A stretch of DNA of 40,846 bases from a bacterium. GTDB taxonomy: Bacteria > Blakebacterota > Blakebacteria > Blakebacterales > Blakebacteraceae. Within the stretch, counting starts at the first letter, position 1. Every line of letters starts with the position of its first letter. Location: positions 1-40,846 of the forward strand of contig JALGVQ010000008.1 of assembly GCA_025774615.1 (NCBI GenBank), in the 5' to 3' direction. The position numbers and the translations under genes are program-made. Positions 1,987 through 40,648 of this stretch are shown piece by piece. The notes below the pieces were generated by a model. It did no database searches. It worked only from the letters and a program-made list of their open reading frames with translations, and was not told where the DNA came from.

Positions 1987-2910
1987 ATGAGGGAATACGA
2001 ATTCTACCAGGTGGATGTCTTTACATCGGAGCGATTCAGCGGTAATCCCCTGGTTGTGGTACCCGATGCTGATGACCTGACTTCCCGGGAGATGAAGATG
2101 ATCGCGGCGGAGATGAGTGTCCCGCAGACTGCTTTCGTTATTCCTCCTTCCATCGAAGGGTCTCTCTACAAGATGCGAATCCTCACACCCACCACGGAAC
2201 TCCCCTTCACCGGTCATCCGGCGATCGGGGCGCACTGGGTGATGGCAGAACTGGGGAGGGTCTCTCTCGAGGAGCCGGTAACGACCGTACGATACGAACA
2301 GAGTGTCGGCCTCCTGACGGCCGACTTCCACGTCAAGGATGGCAGACTCGATCACATCATGCTGGAGCAGTGTCCGCCGGTCTTCCTGGCCGTGCTGAAG
2401 GATGTCCGCGAACTGGCCAGAGGACTCGGAGTCAACGCGGATGAGATCACCGGTACGGGACGGCCGACCCAGGTGGTTTCGACCGGCATGCCGCAGTTGA
2501 TGGTACCGATGCGTTCACTGGCGGCCGTGCAGCGGCTCGATGCCTCTGAGATGTCCCTTTCCTCACTGTCGAAGGTGCTGAGTAGTCTCGGTTCGAACTT
2601 CATCCACGTATTCACCACTGAAACAGGGAAACCGGGAGTGACCGTTCACGCCCGCGGATTCGGGCATTTTGTCGGCATCCCGGAGGATCCGGTGACCGGT
2701 AACGCCAATGGCGCCCTTGGCGCGTATCTCGTCCAGAACGGGATCATTCCCATCAACGAACCGACGGTCCGGTACATCGCCGAACAGGGCAGTGAGATCC
2801 AGCGACCGGGCACGTTGATGGTGGAGGTCGACCATGATTATGGTCGGCCGAGAATGGTACGGGTCGGTGGACAGGTTGTTCAGGTGATGAAGGGGACCTT
2901 CATGATCTGA
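1987..2910 (+). CDS. PhzF-family protein, paralogue 2, catalytic Glu replaced by Gln
   Basis: The ATG at 1987 was chosen over a GTG at 1972 because GGAAAGG lies six bases upstream of it and because the protein then has 307 residues, exactly like paralogue 1, aligning from the first residue. FTGHPAIG and DPVTGNANGALGAYL are conserved. At residue 47 the motif reads VPQTAF, with codon CAG at 2125-2127, where paralogue 1 has Glu. Glu at this position is the essential acid/base in characterised PhzF. This copy may therefore be inactive, act as a heterodimer partner, or bind ligand without turnover. The pair looks like a tandem gene duplication that has since diverged. Confidence 0.85.
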   Translation: MREYEFYQVDVFTSERFSGNPLVVVPDADDLTSREMKMIAAEMSVPQTAFVIPPSIEGSLYKMRILTPTTELPFTGHPAIGAHWVMAELGRVSLEEPVTTVRYEQSVGLLTADFHVKDGRLDHIMLEQCPPVFLAVLKDVRELARGLGVNADEITGTGRPTQVVSTGMPQLMVPMRSLAAVQRLDASEMSLSSLSKVLSSLGSNFIHVFTTETGKPGVTVHARGFGHFVGIPEDPVTGNANGALGAYLVQNGIIPINEPTVRYIAEQGSEIQRPGTLMVEVDHDYGRPRMVRVGGQVVQVMKGTFMI

Positions 2911-2964
2911 GCCGATATCAACCGGGCATCCGACCCGGGAACTCCCCTCCATCTCATTCGTTCA

Positions 2965-2976
2965 TATAAATGAGCT
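2965..2976 (+). promoter_or_regulatory. possible leaderless promoter of the 2977 gene
   Basis: TATAAA at 2965-2970 ends six bases before the ATG, and there is no convincing Shine-Dalgarno sequence, so the transcript may begin at or next to the start codon. No clear -35 box is visible. A 6-bp inverted repeat, CTCATT at 2953-2958 and AATGAG at 2969-2974, overlaps the element. Confidence 0.35.
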
Positions 2977-3450
2977 ATGGAATCACTCAATAAATCCGGG
3001 AACACCCCTCTCTTCGTATTCGGGATCGTTGCGACCTGCTGTCTGATCTTCAACATGATGATGATACTGCTTCGACATGAGATCTATTTCACTTCTGGTG
3101 GCGTTCCCGATCCGACCGGATGGGTGATCCTGGCAGGATTCCTGCTGGTCGTCGTATTCACCCTGTCATCTCAAATATGGATACTGACCAGATTGAGCGG
3201 GAAACGCGTGCTCACGATACGTGAGGTGATCACCCTGATCTGGGGTATCGCCTGCCTCATCTTCCTGGTCGGCGAGAAGGTAATAATCGATGAGATCGCC
3301 CGTGAGTGGCGTATGGGATGGGAGACGATGGGTGAGGGGGTAATCCTTTACGGATTTTTCACGGTTCAGCTCGGATTCAACCTCTTCATGCTCGCTCAAC
3401 TCAGGCAGGCTGGTCAGTCAGCGGTCACCTCTCCCGGTCAGATTCCCTGA
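2977..3450 (+). CDS. four-helix integral membrane protein of unknown function
   Basis: The 157-residue product has about four hydrophobic segments, near residues 12-33, 47-68, 82-102 and 119-140, with short polar loops. I do not recognise a family and see no catalytic motif. It follows the phzF pair after 66 bp but may have its own promoter. Its 3' end overlaps the convergent nucleotidyltransferase gene by 26 bp. Confidence 0.65.
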   Translation: MESLNKSGNTPLFVFGIVATCCLIFNMMMILLRHEIYFTSGGVPDPTGWVILAGFLLVVVFTLSSQIWILTRLSGKRVLTIREVITLIWGIACLIFLVGEKVIIDEIAREWRMGWETMGEGVILYGFFTVQLGFNLFMLAQLRQAGQSAVTSPGQIP

Positions 3451-3898
3451 TCACGATGAGGACATCTTTGAGGATCGGCACCGTCAGTCTGTCCTTCTCC
3501 CTTCCAGTCGCCTCCTTGCTCACGATGATTCTTTCCAGTCTTAATACCTGAACCTTGATACGACCGAGCCGGATCTTCAGAGTATTGCCGGCTTCCTCCT
3601 CGAAGGTGCCGAGACCATGCATCTGGGTAACAATATCAAACAGTTTTACCGCCTCACCTGCAAACATGGGCGGATTGATCGTGATCGGGGGTATATACAC
3701 GCCACCCACACTCTGCAGAGCCTTCAAGATGCCGGGATCGGTGAGATCCCTGAACCAGAGATCGATATCCTGGGTGACGACCGGTGCGCCCTGAAGGGTC
3801 GCGGCTGAGAGTCCCACAATCATGAAATCGACATGTTCCCGGTTCAGTTCACCGAGGAATGCGATCTCCTTACTGCTGAATATCGATGCTTCCGGCAC
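3425..3898 (-). CDS. nucleotidyltransferase-fold protein (AbiEii/DUF6036-like)
   Basis: The 157-residue protein has the minimal nucleotidyltransferase signature. A VGLSAATLQG segment near residue 28 is followed by TQDIDLWF, whose DxD pair would bind metal and nucleotide. Near the C-terminus is IIVSKEATGREKD, a motif common in small NTases of the AbiEii/DUF6036 type. Its ATG lies inside the 3' end of the HTH regulator gene, a 29-bp overlap, so the two form one transcriptional unit. An HTH protein paired with a small NTase resembles type IV toxin-antitoxin modules such as AbiE, but the proteins are too short and divergent to assign that activity. Calling it a toxin is inference only. Confidence 0.7.
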   Translation of the reverse strand: MPEASIFSSKEIAFLGELNREHVDFMIVGLSAATLQGAPVVTQDIDLWFRDLTDPGILKALQSVGGVYIPPITINPPMFAGEAVKLFDIVTQMHGLGTFEEEAGNTLKIRLGRIKVQVLRLERIIVSKEATGREKDRLTVPILKDVLIVIRESDRER

Positions 3899-4263
3899 GC
3901 CTCAGTGCCCTCCTCAATCGCTCAACCGGTTCCTCCTGGAGAAGGATCAGCGTGTGGCGGATGGTATCACGGTCAGCCTTCCTGTGACGGAGCGCGATCT
4001 CTTCGACCCTCTTCTGCAATGCTCTTCCCTTCTGGGAAAGCGAACCCTCATCGACCAGGAACTCCGAGGGCGGGATCTGGAGGTATTCGGCGATGGCATG
4101 GATCGAACCTGGCAGGACTATGGATCGAACCTGGCAGGACTGATTCTCTGCGGGTGAGCGAATAGAAAGCATTCCGGCTGACCCCGGCGGCTTCGAGCAT
4201 GGCCGACAGACTCATGCTCCGTGCGGTGCACAACCGTTTCAACGGTTTCAGATCGATCTTCAT
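3870..4263 (-). pseudogene. XRE/Cro-C1 HTH regulator, frameshifted by a 22-bp tandem duplication
   Basis: Two overlapping frames encode the halves of one protein. The first, from the ATG at 4263, encodes an HTH region (SLSAMLEAAGVSRNAFYSL) and runs to VLPGSIH. It then enters a wrong frame at an exact 22-bp duplication (4098-4141). The second frame continues AIAEYLQIPPSEFLVDE and an Arg-rich helical tail to a stop at 3870. Deleting one repeat copy gives a continuous 123-residue protein with the usual Cro/C1 helix order. The next gene, an NTase, overlaps the end. An inverted repeat over the promoter suggests autoregulation. As written, the gene gives only a 71-residue truncated product. Confidence 0.8.
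4098..4141. repeat. exact 22-bp tandem duplication in the HTH gene
   Basis: Positions 4098-4119 and 4120-4141 are identical. The bases on each side do not extend the match, so there is no microhomology at the junction. Because 22 is not a multiple of three, it shifts the reading frame of the HTH gene. Removing either copy restores the frame. Confidence 0.97.
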
Positions 4264-4269
4264 GGAGAT

Positions 4270-4298
4270 AATGTACCATAATTTGGTACATTAAACAA
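4270..4298 (-). promoter_or_regulatory. promoter and overlapping palindromic operator of the HTH/NTase module
   Basis: A perfect inverted repeat with 9-bp arms, AATGTACCA (4270-4278) and TGGTACATT (4284-4292), surrounds a 5-bp spacer. On the minus strand TTGTTT (4293-4298) and TACATT (4270-4275) sit 17 bp apart, as -35 and -10 boxes. The operator thus covers the core promoter. The -10 box ends six bases before the ATG and there is no Shine-Dalgarno sequence, which suggests a leaderless transcript. The arrangement is typical of autorepression by a Cro/C1 regulator. Confidence 0.6.
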
Positions 4299-13926: not shown

Positions 13927-14856
13927 ATGAAACTTGGCATGGTAGGTCTCGGTCGCATGGGGGCCAATATGACCGAACGTCTCCTGACCGGTGGTCATGA
14001 GATTGTCGGATTCGATTTTAACGCCGACAGCCGGAAGCGCGTGGTGGATAAAGGAGCCGAGGAGGCTGATAAAGGAGCCGAGGAGGCTGGTTCACTCGAG
14101 GATATTGTCGAAAAACTCGTCATGCCGCGGGTGATCTGGTTGATGATCCCGGCCGGGGAACCGGTTGATCAGACCATCCGATCTCTGATACCGCTTCTCG
14201 ATTCCGGGGATGTGATCATCGATGGGGGAAATTCGTGGTACAAAGACACTCTCCGACGATCGGAAGAGTTGAGGGAAACCGGTATCTATTTCGTTGATGT
14301 CGGCACCAGCGGCGGCATCTGGGGCCTGACAGAGGGCTACAGTCTGATGGTGGGAGGTCCCGACAAGGTCATCGAACATCTTGGTCCGATCTTCTCGACA
14401 CTGGCGCCGGTACCCGACAGGGGCTGGGGACATGTGGGGCCGACCGGGTCGGGTCATTTCGTCAAGATGATCCACAATGGAATCGAATACGGGATGATGC
14501 AGTCACTGGCAGAGGGCTTCACGCTGTTGGCGAATAAAGATGATTTCGGTCTCGACATCCATCAGATCGCCGAGATCTGGCAGCACGGGAGTGTGGTCCG
14601 ATCCTGGCTTCTCGACCTTACCGAGAAGGCGCTGAGTGACAATCCCACCCTTGAGGGGATCGCGCCTCATGTGGCCGATTCAGGAGAGGGACGATGGACC
14701 GTCTTCGAGGCGATCGACCAGAATATCGCTGCGCCGGTGCTCACCCATTCACTGCTGCAACGCCTGCAATCACGCGACGAGGAGGGCATGGCGTACAAAC
14801 TGCTTGCCGTGATGCGTCGTGAGTTCGGTGGACACGCAATCAGAGAGACAGAGTGA
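13927..14856 (+). CDS. gnd: 6-phosphogluconate dehydrogenase, decarboxylating (short GndA-like type)
   Basis: The 309-residue enzyme oxidises 6-phosphogluconate to ribulose 5-phosphate and CO2. The Rossmann motif GLGRMGANM is at residues 7-15. Active-site motifs are IIDGGNSWYKD, DVGTSGGIWG and GHFVKMIHNGIEYGMMQ, with the catalytic Lys and the conserved HNGIEYG. The length fits the short, usually NAD-dependent type rather than the 470-residue form. Residues 41-54 consist of a 7-residue unit, DKGAEEA, present twice because of an exact 21-bp in-frame duplication at 14047-14088. The extra unit lies after the nucleotide-binding beta-alpha-beta and could be tolerated. It is the first gene of gnd-zwf-pgl. 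Confidence 0.93.
   Translation: MKLGMVGLGRMGANMTERLLTGGHEIVGFDFNADSRKRVVDKGAEEADKGAEEAGSLEDIVEKLVMPRVIWLMIPAGEPVDQTIRSLIPLLDSGDVIIDGGNSWYKDTLRRSEELRETGIYFVDVGTSGGIWGLTEGYSLMVGGPDKVIEHLGPIFSTLAPVPDRGWGHVGPTGSGHFVKMIHNGIEYGMMQSLAEGFTLLANKDDFGLDIHQIAEIWQHGSVVRSWLLDLTEKALSDNPTLEGIAPHVADSGEGRWTVFEAIDQNIAAPVLTHSLLQRLQSRDEEGMAYKLLAVMRREFGGHAIRETE
14047..14088. repeat. exact 21-bp in-frame tandem duplication in gnd
   Basis: Positions 14047-14067 and 14068-14088 are identical. Only one base of microhomology is seen at the right junction. It adds seven residues, DKGAEEA, without breaking the frame. Confidence 0.97.
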
Positions 14857-37596: not shown

Positions 37597-39221
37597 ACCA
37601 CCGATTCCTCTACAGAAGGCTCCGGTGAGCGATCCGGGGCAGTTGCCGCCGGGAGTACGTCGATCGCCAACGGGACCAGGCTCGGATCGAACTGTGTTCC
37701 AGTGCAGTCACGGAATTCCTGAATGATCTCGGAGATACTCCTTGCACGCCGGTAGAACCTGTCGTGAGCCATGGCGTCCCAGGTGTCACCGAGAGCCAGC
37801 AGACGCGCCATGAAAGGTATCTCCTCCTGTGCGAGACCCTCGGGATACCCGTTGCCGTCCCACCGTTCATGGTGATAAAGGATGCCGTCGAGGGCCGAAC
37901 GCAGGAAACTGATCGGTTTGACGATCTCGTAACCGATCCCGGGATGCTGTTTGACGAGATTGAACTCCTCTTCGGTGAGCTTCTCCTTGGTGGAGAGGAT
38001 GTGCGTCGGGAGGCCGATCTTGCCGACATCGTGCAGCAGGGCCGAATACCTGATCATCTCCACTTCCGCGGTCGGCAGACCGACCGCGCGGGCAAGGTGT
38101 ACCGAGTTCCGCATGACTCGTTCCGAGTGTCCTCGGGTGTACGCGTCCTTGGCGTCCACAGCGGCCGCAAGGGCAGAAACCGTGTCGAGATAGGAAACTT
38201 CGAGACTGCGATAGAGCTGGGCGTTCCTCGCCGCGACCGACACATGGCTGGCCAGAGTCTTCAGAAAATCGATATCGTCCGCGCTGAACGATTCAGCGCT
38301 CTGCTCTGCGGTGAGGGTCAGTGATCCGAAGGCATGCCCCTCACTGAAGAGGGGAAGACCGAGCGTTCTGATCGACCGTTCACCGGTCCAGACACTCAAG
38401 GTGCGCACTTCGGTCTCACCGTCATAGACCAGGCAGAGGTTCTCACTCTGAAGGACTTTCCGGGCACACGTATCCTGAAGTTCTCTGACAGTCTCCCTGA
38501 CTCCTTCTTCAGCGCCCGCGCGCTTCAGATCCTCAGTGTTCATGTCAGGTTCGAGATCATCACTGTCGATGGTATAGAGGCCGACAATCGCCGGTTTCAC
38601 ATGCTGCCGCACGTTCTCTTCGACCGAACCTCCCAATTTTTCGAGAGAGAGGTGCCCTGAGAAAGCCTGGCCCGCCTGGTTCAGACTGGCCAGCTGGTCG
38701 ACCTTCCTGACCAGTGAACCGGTCATCGTGTTGAAAGAGTTGACGAGATCACCGATCTCGTCGTTCGAGGGATAGGATATCCGCCGGGTGAGATCTCCGC
38801 CGGCAATGGCATCAGCCACTTCTCCTGCATACTTGAGAGGGGCCACGACAGAGCGTGAGGTATAGAAGAGCATTACCAATCCAGCCGCGACCAGAGCGAT
38901 CACCGGTGTCCTGAGCAGGAAGAGCACCCCGGACAGTTGTTCCTTGAACGTCACCAGGTTCGTCAGGTCTATCTGTTTACCGCTGGCGAGTATTATGAGC
39001 TGCGGGCCGCTCTTCAATTCAAACCATGCGACCACAACCATGAGGAGCATGACCACGCCGAGGATCACGAAGGTGAATCGGCCCTGAAGTCCCAGCCTGA
39101 ACCAGGTCTTTTTGCCCGAGGCGTTCTCACCGGAATTGTTCACGCGTCGTTCGACTCCGGAGAGAGCCATGAGATCGGACGTCGACCCGTTTCCCGTCGG
39201 GACATTATTGAGCTGGTTCAT
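37593..39221 (-). CDS. HAMP-GAF-HD-GYP cyclic di-GMP phosphodiesterase-like protein
   Basis: The 542-residue protein has two transmembrane helices, near 50-70 and 97-118, HAMP near 120-175, a GAF domain near 190-335 and a C-terminal HD-GYP domain. The metal motif HDVGKIGLP begins at His397, HHERWDGNGYP carries GYP at 458-460, and the upstream HSERV and downstream LGDTWDAM motifs are intact. It should hydrolyse cyclic di-GMP. It sits between the secretin and PilB-type ATPase genes in the same operon with 4-nt overlaps, so it may tune pilus or secretion activity. The short periplasmic part between helices may sense a signal. Confidence 0.92.
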   Translation of the reverse strand: MNQLNNVPTGNGSTSDLMALSGVERRVNNSGENASGKKTWFRLGLQGRFTFVILGVVMLLMVVVAWFELKSGPQLIILASGKQIDLTNLVTFKEQLSGVLFLLRTPVIALVAAGLVMLFYTSRSVVAPLKYAGEVADAIAGGDLTRRISYPSNDEIGDLVNSFNTMTGSLVRKVDQLASLNQAGQAFSGHLSLEKLGGSVEENVRQHVKPAIVGLYTIDSDDLEPDMNTEDLKRAGAEEGVRETVRELQDTCARKVLQSENLCLVYDGETEVRTLSVWTGERSIRTLGLPLFSEGHAFGSLTLTAEQSAESFSADDIDFLKTLASHVSVAARNAQLYRSLEVSYLDTVSALAAAVDAKDAYTRGHSERVMRNSVHLARAVGLPTAEVEMIRYSALLHDVGKIGLPTHILSTKEKLTEEEFNLVKQHPGIGYEIVKPISFLRSALDGILYHHERWDGNGYPEGLAQEEIPFMARLLALGDTWDAMAHDRFYRRARSISEIIQEFRDCTGTQFDPSLVPLAIDVLPAATAPDRSPEPSVEESVV

Positions 39222-40112
39222 GGCCCACCTCCCGGCATGACCCCTGGAGGTGGATCCACAGTCAGGATCCGCGGTGATACAAGAATGATCAGTTCCCGCT
39301 TTTCCTTACGTATTGTCTGGCTTGAAAAGAGATATTTGAGAATGGGTATCTTGCTCAGGATAGGAATCCCGGTTCTGGTCACCGTTTCCTGTTCCCTGAA
39401 CAGTCCACCGATCACCATGACATCTCCATCCTGCACAATGACCTGGGAATTGGTGTTACGTGTGGCAATGACCGGGATACCGCTTGCTGTGGACGTCGTA
39501 GCGTTGGAAAACTCCGCGTTTATCATGAGCTGGATGGAAGAGGAGTCGAGGATCGTCGGTGTCACGGACATGACAATCCCGACATCGATGAATCGCGTTT
39601 GGAGTCCCGTGAAACCCTGTCCGAATATCGCCTCGGTGTAGGGAATCTGATCGGCGAGGTTGGTTGTGGCAGGTCTGCCATCAAGCACTACTGTTGTGGG
39701 CCTGCTCAGAAGATTGGCGTCTGAATAGGTCGCCAGCGCATTAAGCACCACATCCATATCCAGATTTCCACCCAATAACCCTCCTACGGCAAATCCAGCA
39801 ACACCAACCCGGAATCCCGACTGGCTGATACCAGGAAGCTCCAGTAAAGCACTCTCAACATCAACACCTGGAGACACTCCCAGCTGATAGTCGATCCCCT
39901 CGCTCTCATCTTCACTATGCACCACCTCCATCAGGGCAACCTGTATCTCAACCTGCCGTGGCCGCACATCGATCTGCTCGATGTACCAGACGAGACGCTC
40001 AACCTCCGGTACAAAGTCCTGTACGTAGATCGTCTGGCTCTGAAAATCGATCTTCAGTATCGCGTCTGGACTCAGGAGTTCCTTCAACTCTGTTTCCAAC
40101 AGCTGGGCACCA

Positions 40113-40222
40113 GCCGTTGCTCCACCCGCAGCACCTCCGGTCGCGCCACCTGTAGCGCCACCTGTCGCCCCACCTGTCGCCCCTCCACCTCCACTCTGGC
40201 CACCTGTCGCCCCACCTGCAAA
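40113..40222 (-). repeat. 12-bp minisatellite in the secretin gene
   Basis: A degenerate 12-bp unit encoding Gly-Ala-Thr-Gly is repeated five or more times on the minus strand, making a low-complexity linker between the N0-like and N1-like domains. Copy-number change would keep the frame and alter linker length. Confidence 0.8.
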
Positions 40223-40508
40223 CCGGGAAGCCAGATATTTGAACCTGATTATCCGCTCCTCGCGATTGGGCAGTATCTGTATGAAGTTCTCCTCCTGGTG
40301 GTATGTGAGCCCGAGCGGCTCCAGAATCAACATAAGCGCATCTGCCACCGAGATCTCCTGCAGGTGGAGATGCCCGATCTGGAGAGAATCCTGCTCGGTC
40401 CCGTACTTGGGGATGATATGGCTAAGTCCCGTACCCCGGATGATCGCAAAAAGTGCTTCCTGGAGCGACTCATCCACCAGGATCAGCTCAGGGATTATCT
40501 GTGTTGTC

Positions 40509-40558
40509 AGATCGACAGCCTGAGCATGGGTTGAGATCGACAGCCTGAGCATGGGTTG
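40509..40558. repeat. exact 25-bp tandem duplication in the secretin gene
   Basis: Positions 40509-40533 and 40534-40558 are identical, with one base of microhomology on the right. Because 25 is not divisible by three it moves the signal peptide out of frame with the secretin body. Confidence 0.97.
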
Positions 40559-40648
40559 ATTCAGGTGCTGACGCGATCAGACAAAGCGACAACAGCAACA
40601 CGGCTGAAAACGGCCGTTTTCGCATGGTTTCTCCTTCGTCCCGGAGGT

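Follow-up and report, generated by a model that had tools for sequence, protein, structure and literature searches.

The locus described here belongs to a conserved two-gene cassette, sparse and scattered among bacterial phyla, in which a small nucleotidyltransferase (NTase) is preceded by a two-domain partner and an operator is tied to the helix-turn-helix (HTH) domain of that partner. We consider it probable that this cassette is an autorepressed, mobile module of the toxin-antitoxin type, with the NTase as the presumed toxin. The window (the whole stretch of 40,846 nucleotides that was analysed) is a single contig from a metagenome-assembled genome of 3.3 Mb, which comprises 324 contigs and is 82% complete; its phylum is represented by only four genomes in the species-level collection. 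On its minus strand, a Cro/C1-type regulator (ATG at 4263, end at 3870) lies upstream of a 157-aa NTase (3898-3425). The coordinates of the features are given in Table 1. A preliminary description of this DNA had reported that the two genes overlap by 29 bp, that a 9-5-9 palindrome covers a promoter of 17-bp spacing whose -10 box lies six bases from the start codon, and that a 22-bp duplication breaks the regulator while the NTase stays open. All of these are readily seen in the sequence.

Table 1. Features of the HTH-NTase module in the window.
Feature	Position	Strand	Evidence
NTase gene, 157 aa, GTG start, open	3425..3898	-	sequence, family alignment, model, fold
First piece of the partner in the assembly: 71 aa from the ATG, then out of frame	4048..4263	-	HTH_26 match
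Second piece of the partner: frame of 100 aa opening at a separate ATG, 4172	3870..4172	-	open frame, domain profiles
Partner C-terminal domain (ADRDTIRHTLILLQEEPVERLRRAL...), always linked to the NTase	3876..4034	-	68/68 near-complete NTases
Overlap of partner 3′ end and NTase 5′ end, 29 bp	3870..3898	-	partner 3′ end over NTase 5′ end
22-bp perfect tandem duplication, frame-shifting	4098..4141 (4098-4119, 4120-4141)		absent in G001
Operator: 9-5-9 palindrome AATGTACCA-N5-TGGTACATT, conserved core 4273-4289	4270..4292		sequence and relatives
-10 box TACATT, 6 nt before ATG	4270..4275	-	TAC..T conserved in relatives
-35 box TTGTTT, 17-nt spacing (TTGACA-like in relatives)	4293..4298	-	TTG conserved 73-95%

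A profile built from three NTase sequences was run over approximately 85,000 species genomes and recovered 73 loci in many phyla, including Krumholzibacteriota, Latescibacterota, Aminicenantota, Lentisphaerota, Verrucomicrobiota, Nitrospirota, Spirochaetota, Omnitrophota, Acidobacteriota, Myxococcota and Thermodesulfobacteriota. Outside the genus of the window, identity to its NTase reached 60-66%. The preliminary description had proposed a search for co-occurring homologues of the two proteins, and the pair does recur: with profiles of the partner halves, the C-terminal domain of the partner was found immediately upstream of the NTase in 68/68 near-complete NTases, being interrupted in two of them (L058, L059). 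The HTH is joined to this domain in 39 loci and the C-terminal domain stands alone in about 30. Among the 68 near-complete NTases, the HTH profile was found in 38 (the window included) and not in 30. On the NTase tree the presence of the HTH changes approximately four times, and HTH-less partners with conserved NTases occur in Verrucomicrobiota, Acidobacteriota and Myxococcota. The partner and NTase genes typically overlap by 26-35 bp, with less in a few loci, and the NTase has a GTG start in most relatives; because the genes overlap, they are presumably co-transcribed. No recurrent third gene was found within ~3 kb of the pair. As in type II toxin-antitoxin systems, the genes are small, adjacent and conserved as a pair, and their distribution is sparse and scattered.

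This sparseness could also be approached from the side of the partner. In the phylum of locus L009, a partner homologue was present in 11/297 genomes, and a reverse search from the partner found a full NTase in 8/11. The partner domain is kept and the NTase core gone in L153, L157, L161 and an extra copy (L151) in genome G009. On these small numbers, it is the enzyme that is lost and the partner that is retained, as one would expect were the enzyme the harmful component. In L161 the partner domain is apparently joined in frame to an NTase tail. No relative was matched among phage records, and the viral contigs contained one distant relative. On plasmids, the only matches were distant DUF6036 NTases that form part of larger fusion proteins and lack this partner. 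On Spirosoma/Fibrella plasmids (L005 2980-4887, L006 3016-4914) there are proteins of ~635 aa with an N-terminal, distant DUF6036-type NTase domain, and the one in L005 adjoins an annotated AbiE pair.

A genome of the same genus as the host (G001) carries the pair between the same neighbours, metallophosphatase and PhzF-like genes. Its regulator is intact at 122 aa and free of the 22-bp duplication, its NTase is 75% identical to that of the window, and its operator core reads GTACCA-N5-TGGTAC. Between the two species, dN/dS was ~0.17 for the HTH, ~0.07 for the C-terminal domain and ~0.12 for the NTase when these were analysed as separate pieces, values that show purifying selection but are silent on the period after the duplication. 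A closer inspection of the G001 NTase (L003 1501-1974) revealed an Ala at the position of D88 in the window, a site occupied by Asp in at least 90% of relatives; this enzyme is possibly weakened. In the window, the module is adjoined by two adjacent PhzF-like genes in tandem (1005-1928 and 1972-2910). An empty insertion site was sought in the sister genus, where the flanking genes were not found together.

When intact, the partner has ~123 aa and consists of a Cro/C1 HTH (HTH_26) followed by a helical domain of ~55 aa with the consensus ...D-NVRHTLILL-E-P-ERLRRSL-RGR.... In the window the interrupted gene was searched as separate pieces. The first frame (71 aa) covers positions 1-50 of the 66 in the HTH profile (4263-4114), and the second (100 aa) covers HTH positions 39-65 and the entire C-terminal domain. 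The structural model of the partner is of low overall confidence (pTM 0.41). A fold search with it gave matches at the level of the HTH only, with E above 0.09, and the C-terminal domain had no relative among solved structures.

The operator follows the HTH closely. The motif GTAC(C/T)A-N5-T(A/G)GTAC was found with at most two mismatches 7-12 nt (mostly 9) before the start codon in 37/39 HTH loci, and with at most one mismatch in 36/39. By chance, a near-match at 7-12 nt from a start would be expected in ~4 per 100,000 shuffled upstream regions. The motif was not found within 600 nt of HTH-less loci, and among loci without a full HTH it occurs only in L071, where the HTH copy is decayed. In this decaying copy (2620-3309) the HTH partner has no obvious start codon, the operator is intact and the NTase is shortened. 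The core TGTACCA-N5-TGGTACA occurs only once in the whole 3.3-Mb assembly hosting the window. When relatives were aligned by their operators, the TTG of the -35 box (73-95%) and the TAC of the -10 box were conserved across a 17-nt spacer, as was the overlay of promoter and operator with its six-base gap to the ATG. The T in the last position of the -10 box, which falls outside the symmetric core, is kept in 35/37 loci. With six bases from the -10 box to the ATG, transcription should therefore begin on the A of the ATG or on an adjacent base, and the promoter geometry suggests that the mRNA of the module is probably leaderless. Taken together, the comparative evidence favours binding of the HTH to the palindrome, and autorepression through it is predicted with strong support from the comparison.

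Moreover, the recognition helix and the operator appear to covary. Loci with S-x-Asn in the helix have C at operator position 5 in 21/21 cases, and those with S-x-Thr have T in 15/16, giving agreement at 36/37 loci overall; the window pairs Asn with GTACCA. Of the loci found later, L153, L155 and L156 (Thr) fit the rule and L154 is mixed. There are three residue changes on the NTase tree, two with a concordant operator change, none with a discordant one and one without an operator change, and with only three changes a sign test on the covariation was not significant. A correspondence of one residue to one base is thus suggestive, with few independent changes behind it.

The NTase is predicted with confidence. 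AlphaFold2, run on the family alignment, returned an NTase model with a pLDDT of 93 and a pTM of 0.87. The residues T42-x-D44-x-D46 (3775-3761), D88, K128 (3517-3515) and R133-x-K135-D136 stand out; in family alignment A3, T42, D44, D46, S127 and R133 are invariant, and D88, K128, K135 and D136 are kept in at least 90% of sequences. The NTase fold is thus present together with the T/S-x-D-x-D, Lys and Asp residues of the active site, the Lys and Asp having been assigned by position and not by superposition. The closest solved folds were TM1012, ANT(2'')-Ia and MenT1, the last both alone and in the MenAT1 complex (query TM ~0.6, identity 15-19%), with LnuA also among them; the structural score of ANT(2'')-Ia, which modifies antibiotics, was as good as that of MenT1. 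The catalytic motif of MenT1, T39/D41/D43 (PMC10435456), corresponds to T42/D44/D46 here. The catalytic set of MenT1 that corresponds to the residues kept in this family comprises T39, D41, K137 and D152, and T39 is auto-phosphorylated upon antitoxin binding (PMC10435456, PMC11375011). Pfam gave weak matches to DUF2204/DUF6036, the window protein lying just under the curated cut-off, and weak matches of two family members to aminoglycoside adenylyltransferase. There was no DUF1814/AbiEii match in 48 members at E 0.01, no NCBIfam match for the NTase, and no match in PADLOC-DB 2.0.0 (5027 models for anti-phage defence). A search of the open-licence literature found no paper on DUF6036 or DUF2204.

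From these elements a mechanism may be proposed. The N-terminal Cro/C1 HTH of the partner, presumably as a dimer, would bind GTAC(C/T)A-N5-T(A/G)GTAC and silence the operon, since the palindrome covers both the -10 box and the spacer between it and the -35 box. The C-terminal helical domain would bind and restrain the NTase, a role assigned to it because its linkage to the enzyme is obligate and the domain is retained in HTH-less forms. Once freed, the NTase would add nucleotides to an essential RNA, for which tRNA, the substrate of MenT enzymes, is the most likely candidate. We infer that the NTase is the toxin, and its fold and active-site pattern suggest RNA as the target.

The 22-bp duplication bears on this mechanism directly. 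The preliminary description had seen a paradox in an NTase that stays open after losing its partner. The regulator is indeed broken; the partner, however, is not lost, as the frame of the C-terminal domain (3870-4172) is open. The paradox is softened because the constant companion of the NTase is the C-terminal domain and not the HTH, and because HTH-less partners are common. The truncated product in the window may therefore still work, and the NTase need not be assumed harmless to explain the broken regulator. If real, the duplication costs the module a complete HTH and, with it, probably autorepression, and no second copy of the module able to replace the broken HTH was found elsewhere in the assembly. 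The cell would then resemble a natural HTH-less form, provided that translation of the second frame takes place.

The duplication itself is doubtful. We give an even chance to its being an assembly artefact, with the living module intact and ordinary, which is compatible with the toxin-antitoxin reading. Tandem duplications were counted on a subset of contigs (~380 kb of the assembly and 95 kb of G001). This one 41-kb contig has three perfect two-copy duplications (21, 22 and 25 bp), whereas a single one turned up in ~380 kb from elsewhere in the assembly, a local excess. The 25-bp duplication (40509-40559) throws a conserved secretin gene (39218-40552, minus strand) out of frame close to its signal peptide, although the orthologue in G001 (L122) is a single continuous frame, as would suit an artefact. 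The 21-bp one (14047-14089) preserves the reading frame of the 6-phosphogluconate dehydrogenase gene that contains it (VVDKGAEEADKGAEEAGS). However, the other contigs carry no such excess, and because G001 holds three comparable duplications in its 95 kb, slippage in the lineage is a possible source. A real duplication might also represent a selected variant on its way to the HTH-less form, derepressed yet still kept neutral by the 100-aa product. The HTH-less partners of Verrucomicrobiota, Acidobacteriota and Myxococcota and the C-domain frame open from ATG 4172 fit such a state, but the operator is intact though unneeded, there is no clear ribosome-binding site ahead of 4172, and the event looks recent because the copies are identical; we regard it as decidedly improbable.

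The function of the NTase could also be read differently. It might modify a small molecule such as an antibiotic, the HTH partner being a dedicated repressor and anti-enzyme that lets go of it in the presence of the compound. Such an enzyme would sit well with ANT(2'')-Ia and LnuA among the nearest folds, with the aminoglycoside adenylyltransferase matches, and with the link of S. suis Xre-MNT to streptomycin resistance (PMC8406773). An anti-enzyme domain in every locus, even those without an HTH, and loci that keep the partner after NTase loss are, however, hard to fit to a resistance gene, and the hosts are mostly uncultured environmental bacteria, all of which makes this unlikely. Less probable still is an NTase that acts by regulatory modification, in the way that MntA acts on HepT, with the partner or a distant protein as the harmful component. 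In HEPN/MNT the role of antitoxin does belong to the MNT protein (PMC7641770), but here neither a HEPN gene nor any other third gene accompanies the pair, the partner stands alone at several loci, and nothing in a small HTH joined to a short helical domain points to an enzyme.

The toxin-antitoxin reading thus remains the one that we favour. Here, if the duplication is real, autorepression would be gone and the C-terminal domain frame open, like the HTH-less variant. Tentatively, the module might even be regarded as a distinct family, a doubtful proposition at present, in which a detachable Cro/C1 HTH sits on an NTase-restraining domain, the operator of an autorepressed leaderless promoter keeps a constant arrangement with the -10 box and the start codon in many phyla, one residue is read against one base, and the loss of the HTH is caught in the window. 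Comparison alone defines a widespread HTH-NTase module in phyla known mainly via metagenomes, one that is barely recognised by Pfam and NCBIfam models and not at all by PADLOC-DB. The partner resolves into a DNA-binding part that can be dispensed with and an NTase-linked part that is obligatory. The operator is precisely defined and brings with it a testable rule, by which Asn goes with GTACCA and Thr goes with GTACTA. The locus is also suited to asking whether the safety of an NTase toxin requires autorepression.

The preliminary description held that the pair does not exactly match a described system, and this was borne out, as the nearest systems, Xre-MNT, MenAT1 and AbiE, each differ. The closest solved structure, TM1012 (PDB 2ewr, 2fcl, 4hx0), is itself without known function, and DUF2204/DUF6036 are the nearest Pfam families. 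HEPN/MNT is likewise a mobile two-gene module with a small NTase, whereas here the partner carries an HTH or is HTH-less, there is no HEPN protein, and the overlapping genes run in the order partner-NTase. Xre-MNT of Streptococcus suis (XreSS-MNTSS), compared by the accessible part of its description (PMC8406773), has the same pair of domains, there as an Xre HTH antitoxin beside a nucleotidyltransferase toxin. According to the same text, the antitoxin alone and the complex both bind their own promoter, and the MNT, likened to kanamycin nucleotidyltransferase, is active only when exported. The shared C-terminal domain, the HTH-less forms and the leaderless operator-promoter seen here are not mentioned for it in that part. 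MenAT1 has the NTase fold and the Thr-x-Asp-x-Asp motif in common with the present module, and MenA1 (68 aa, without a DNA-binding domain) is resembled in size by the HTH-less partners of 60-80 aa (PMC10435456; PMC11375011). However, NTase identity is only 17%, the partner has no detectable relation to any solved chain, and most partners here carry an HTH and an operator. AbiE and MenAT3-4 (COG5340-DUF1814, type IV-like) combine an NTase toxin with an antitoxin that has an N-terminal HTH and a C-terminal neutralising domain and is autoregulated by inverted repeats, as is proposed here. In those systems, the toxin is an AbiEii/DUF1814 NTase, of which no match was found in this family, and the antitoxin joins a winged HTH to a large kinase-like domain, whereas the partner described here is a ~123-aa protein with a Cro/C1 HTH and a helical domain of ~55 aa.
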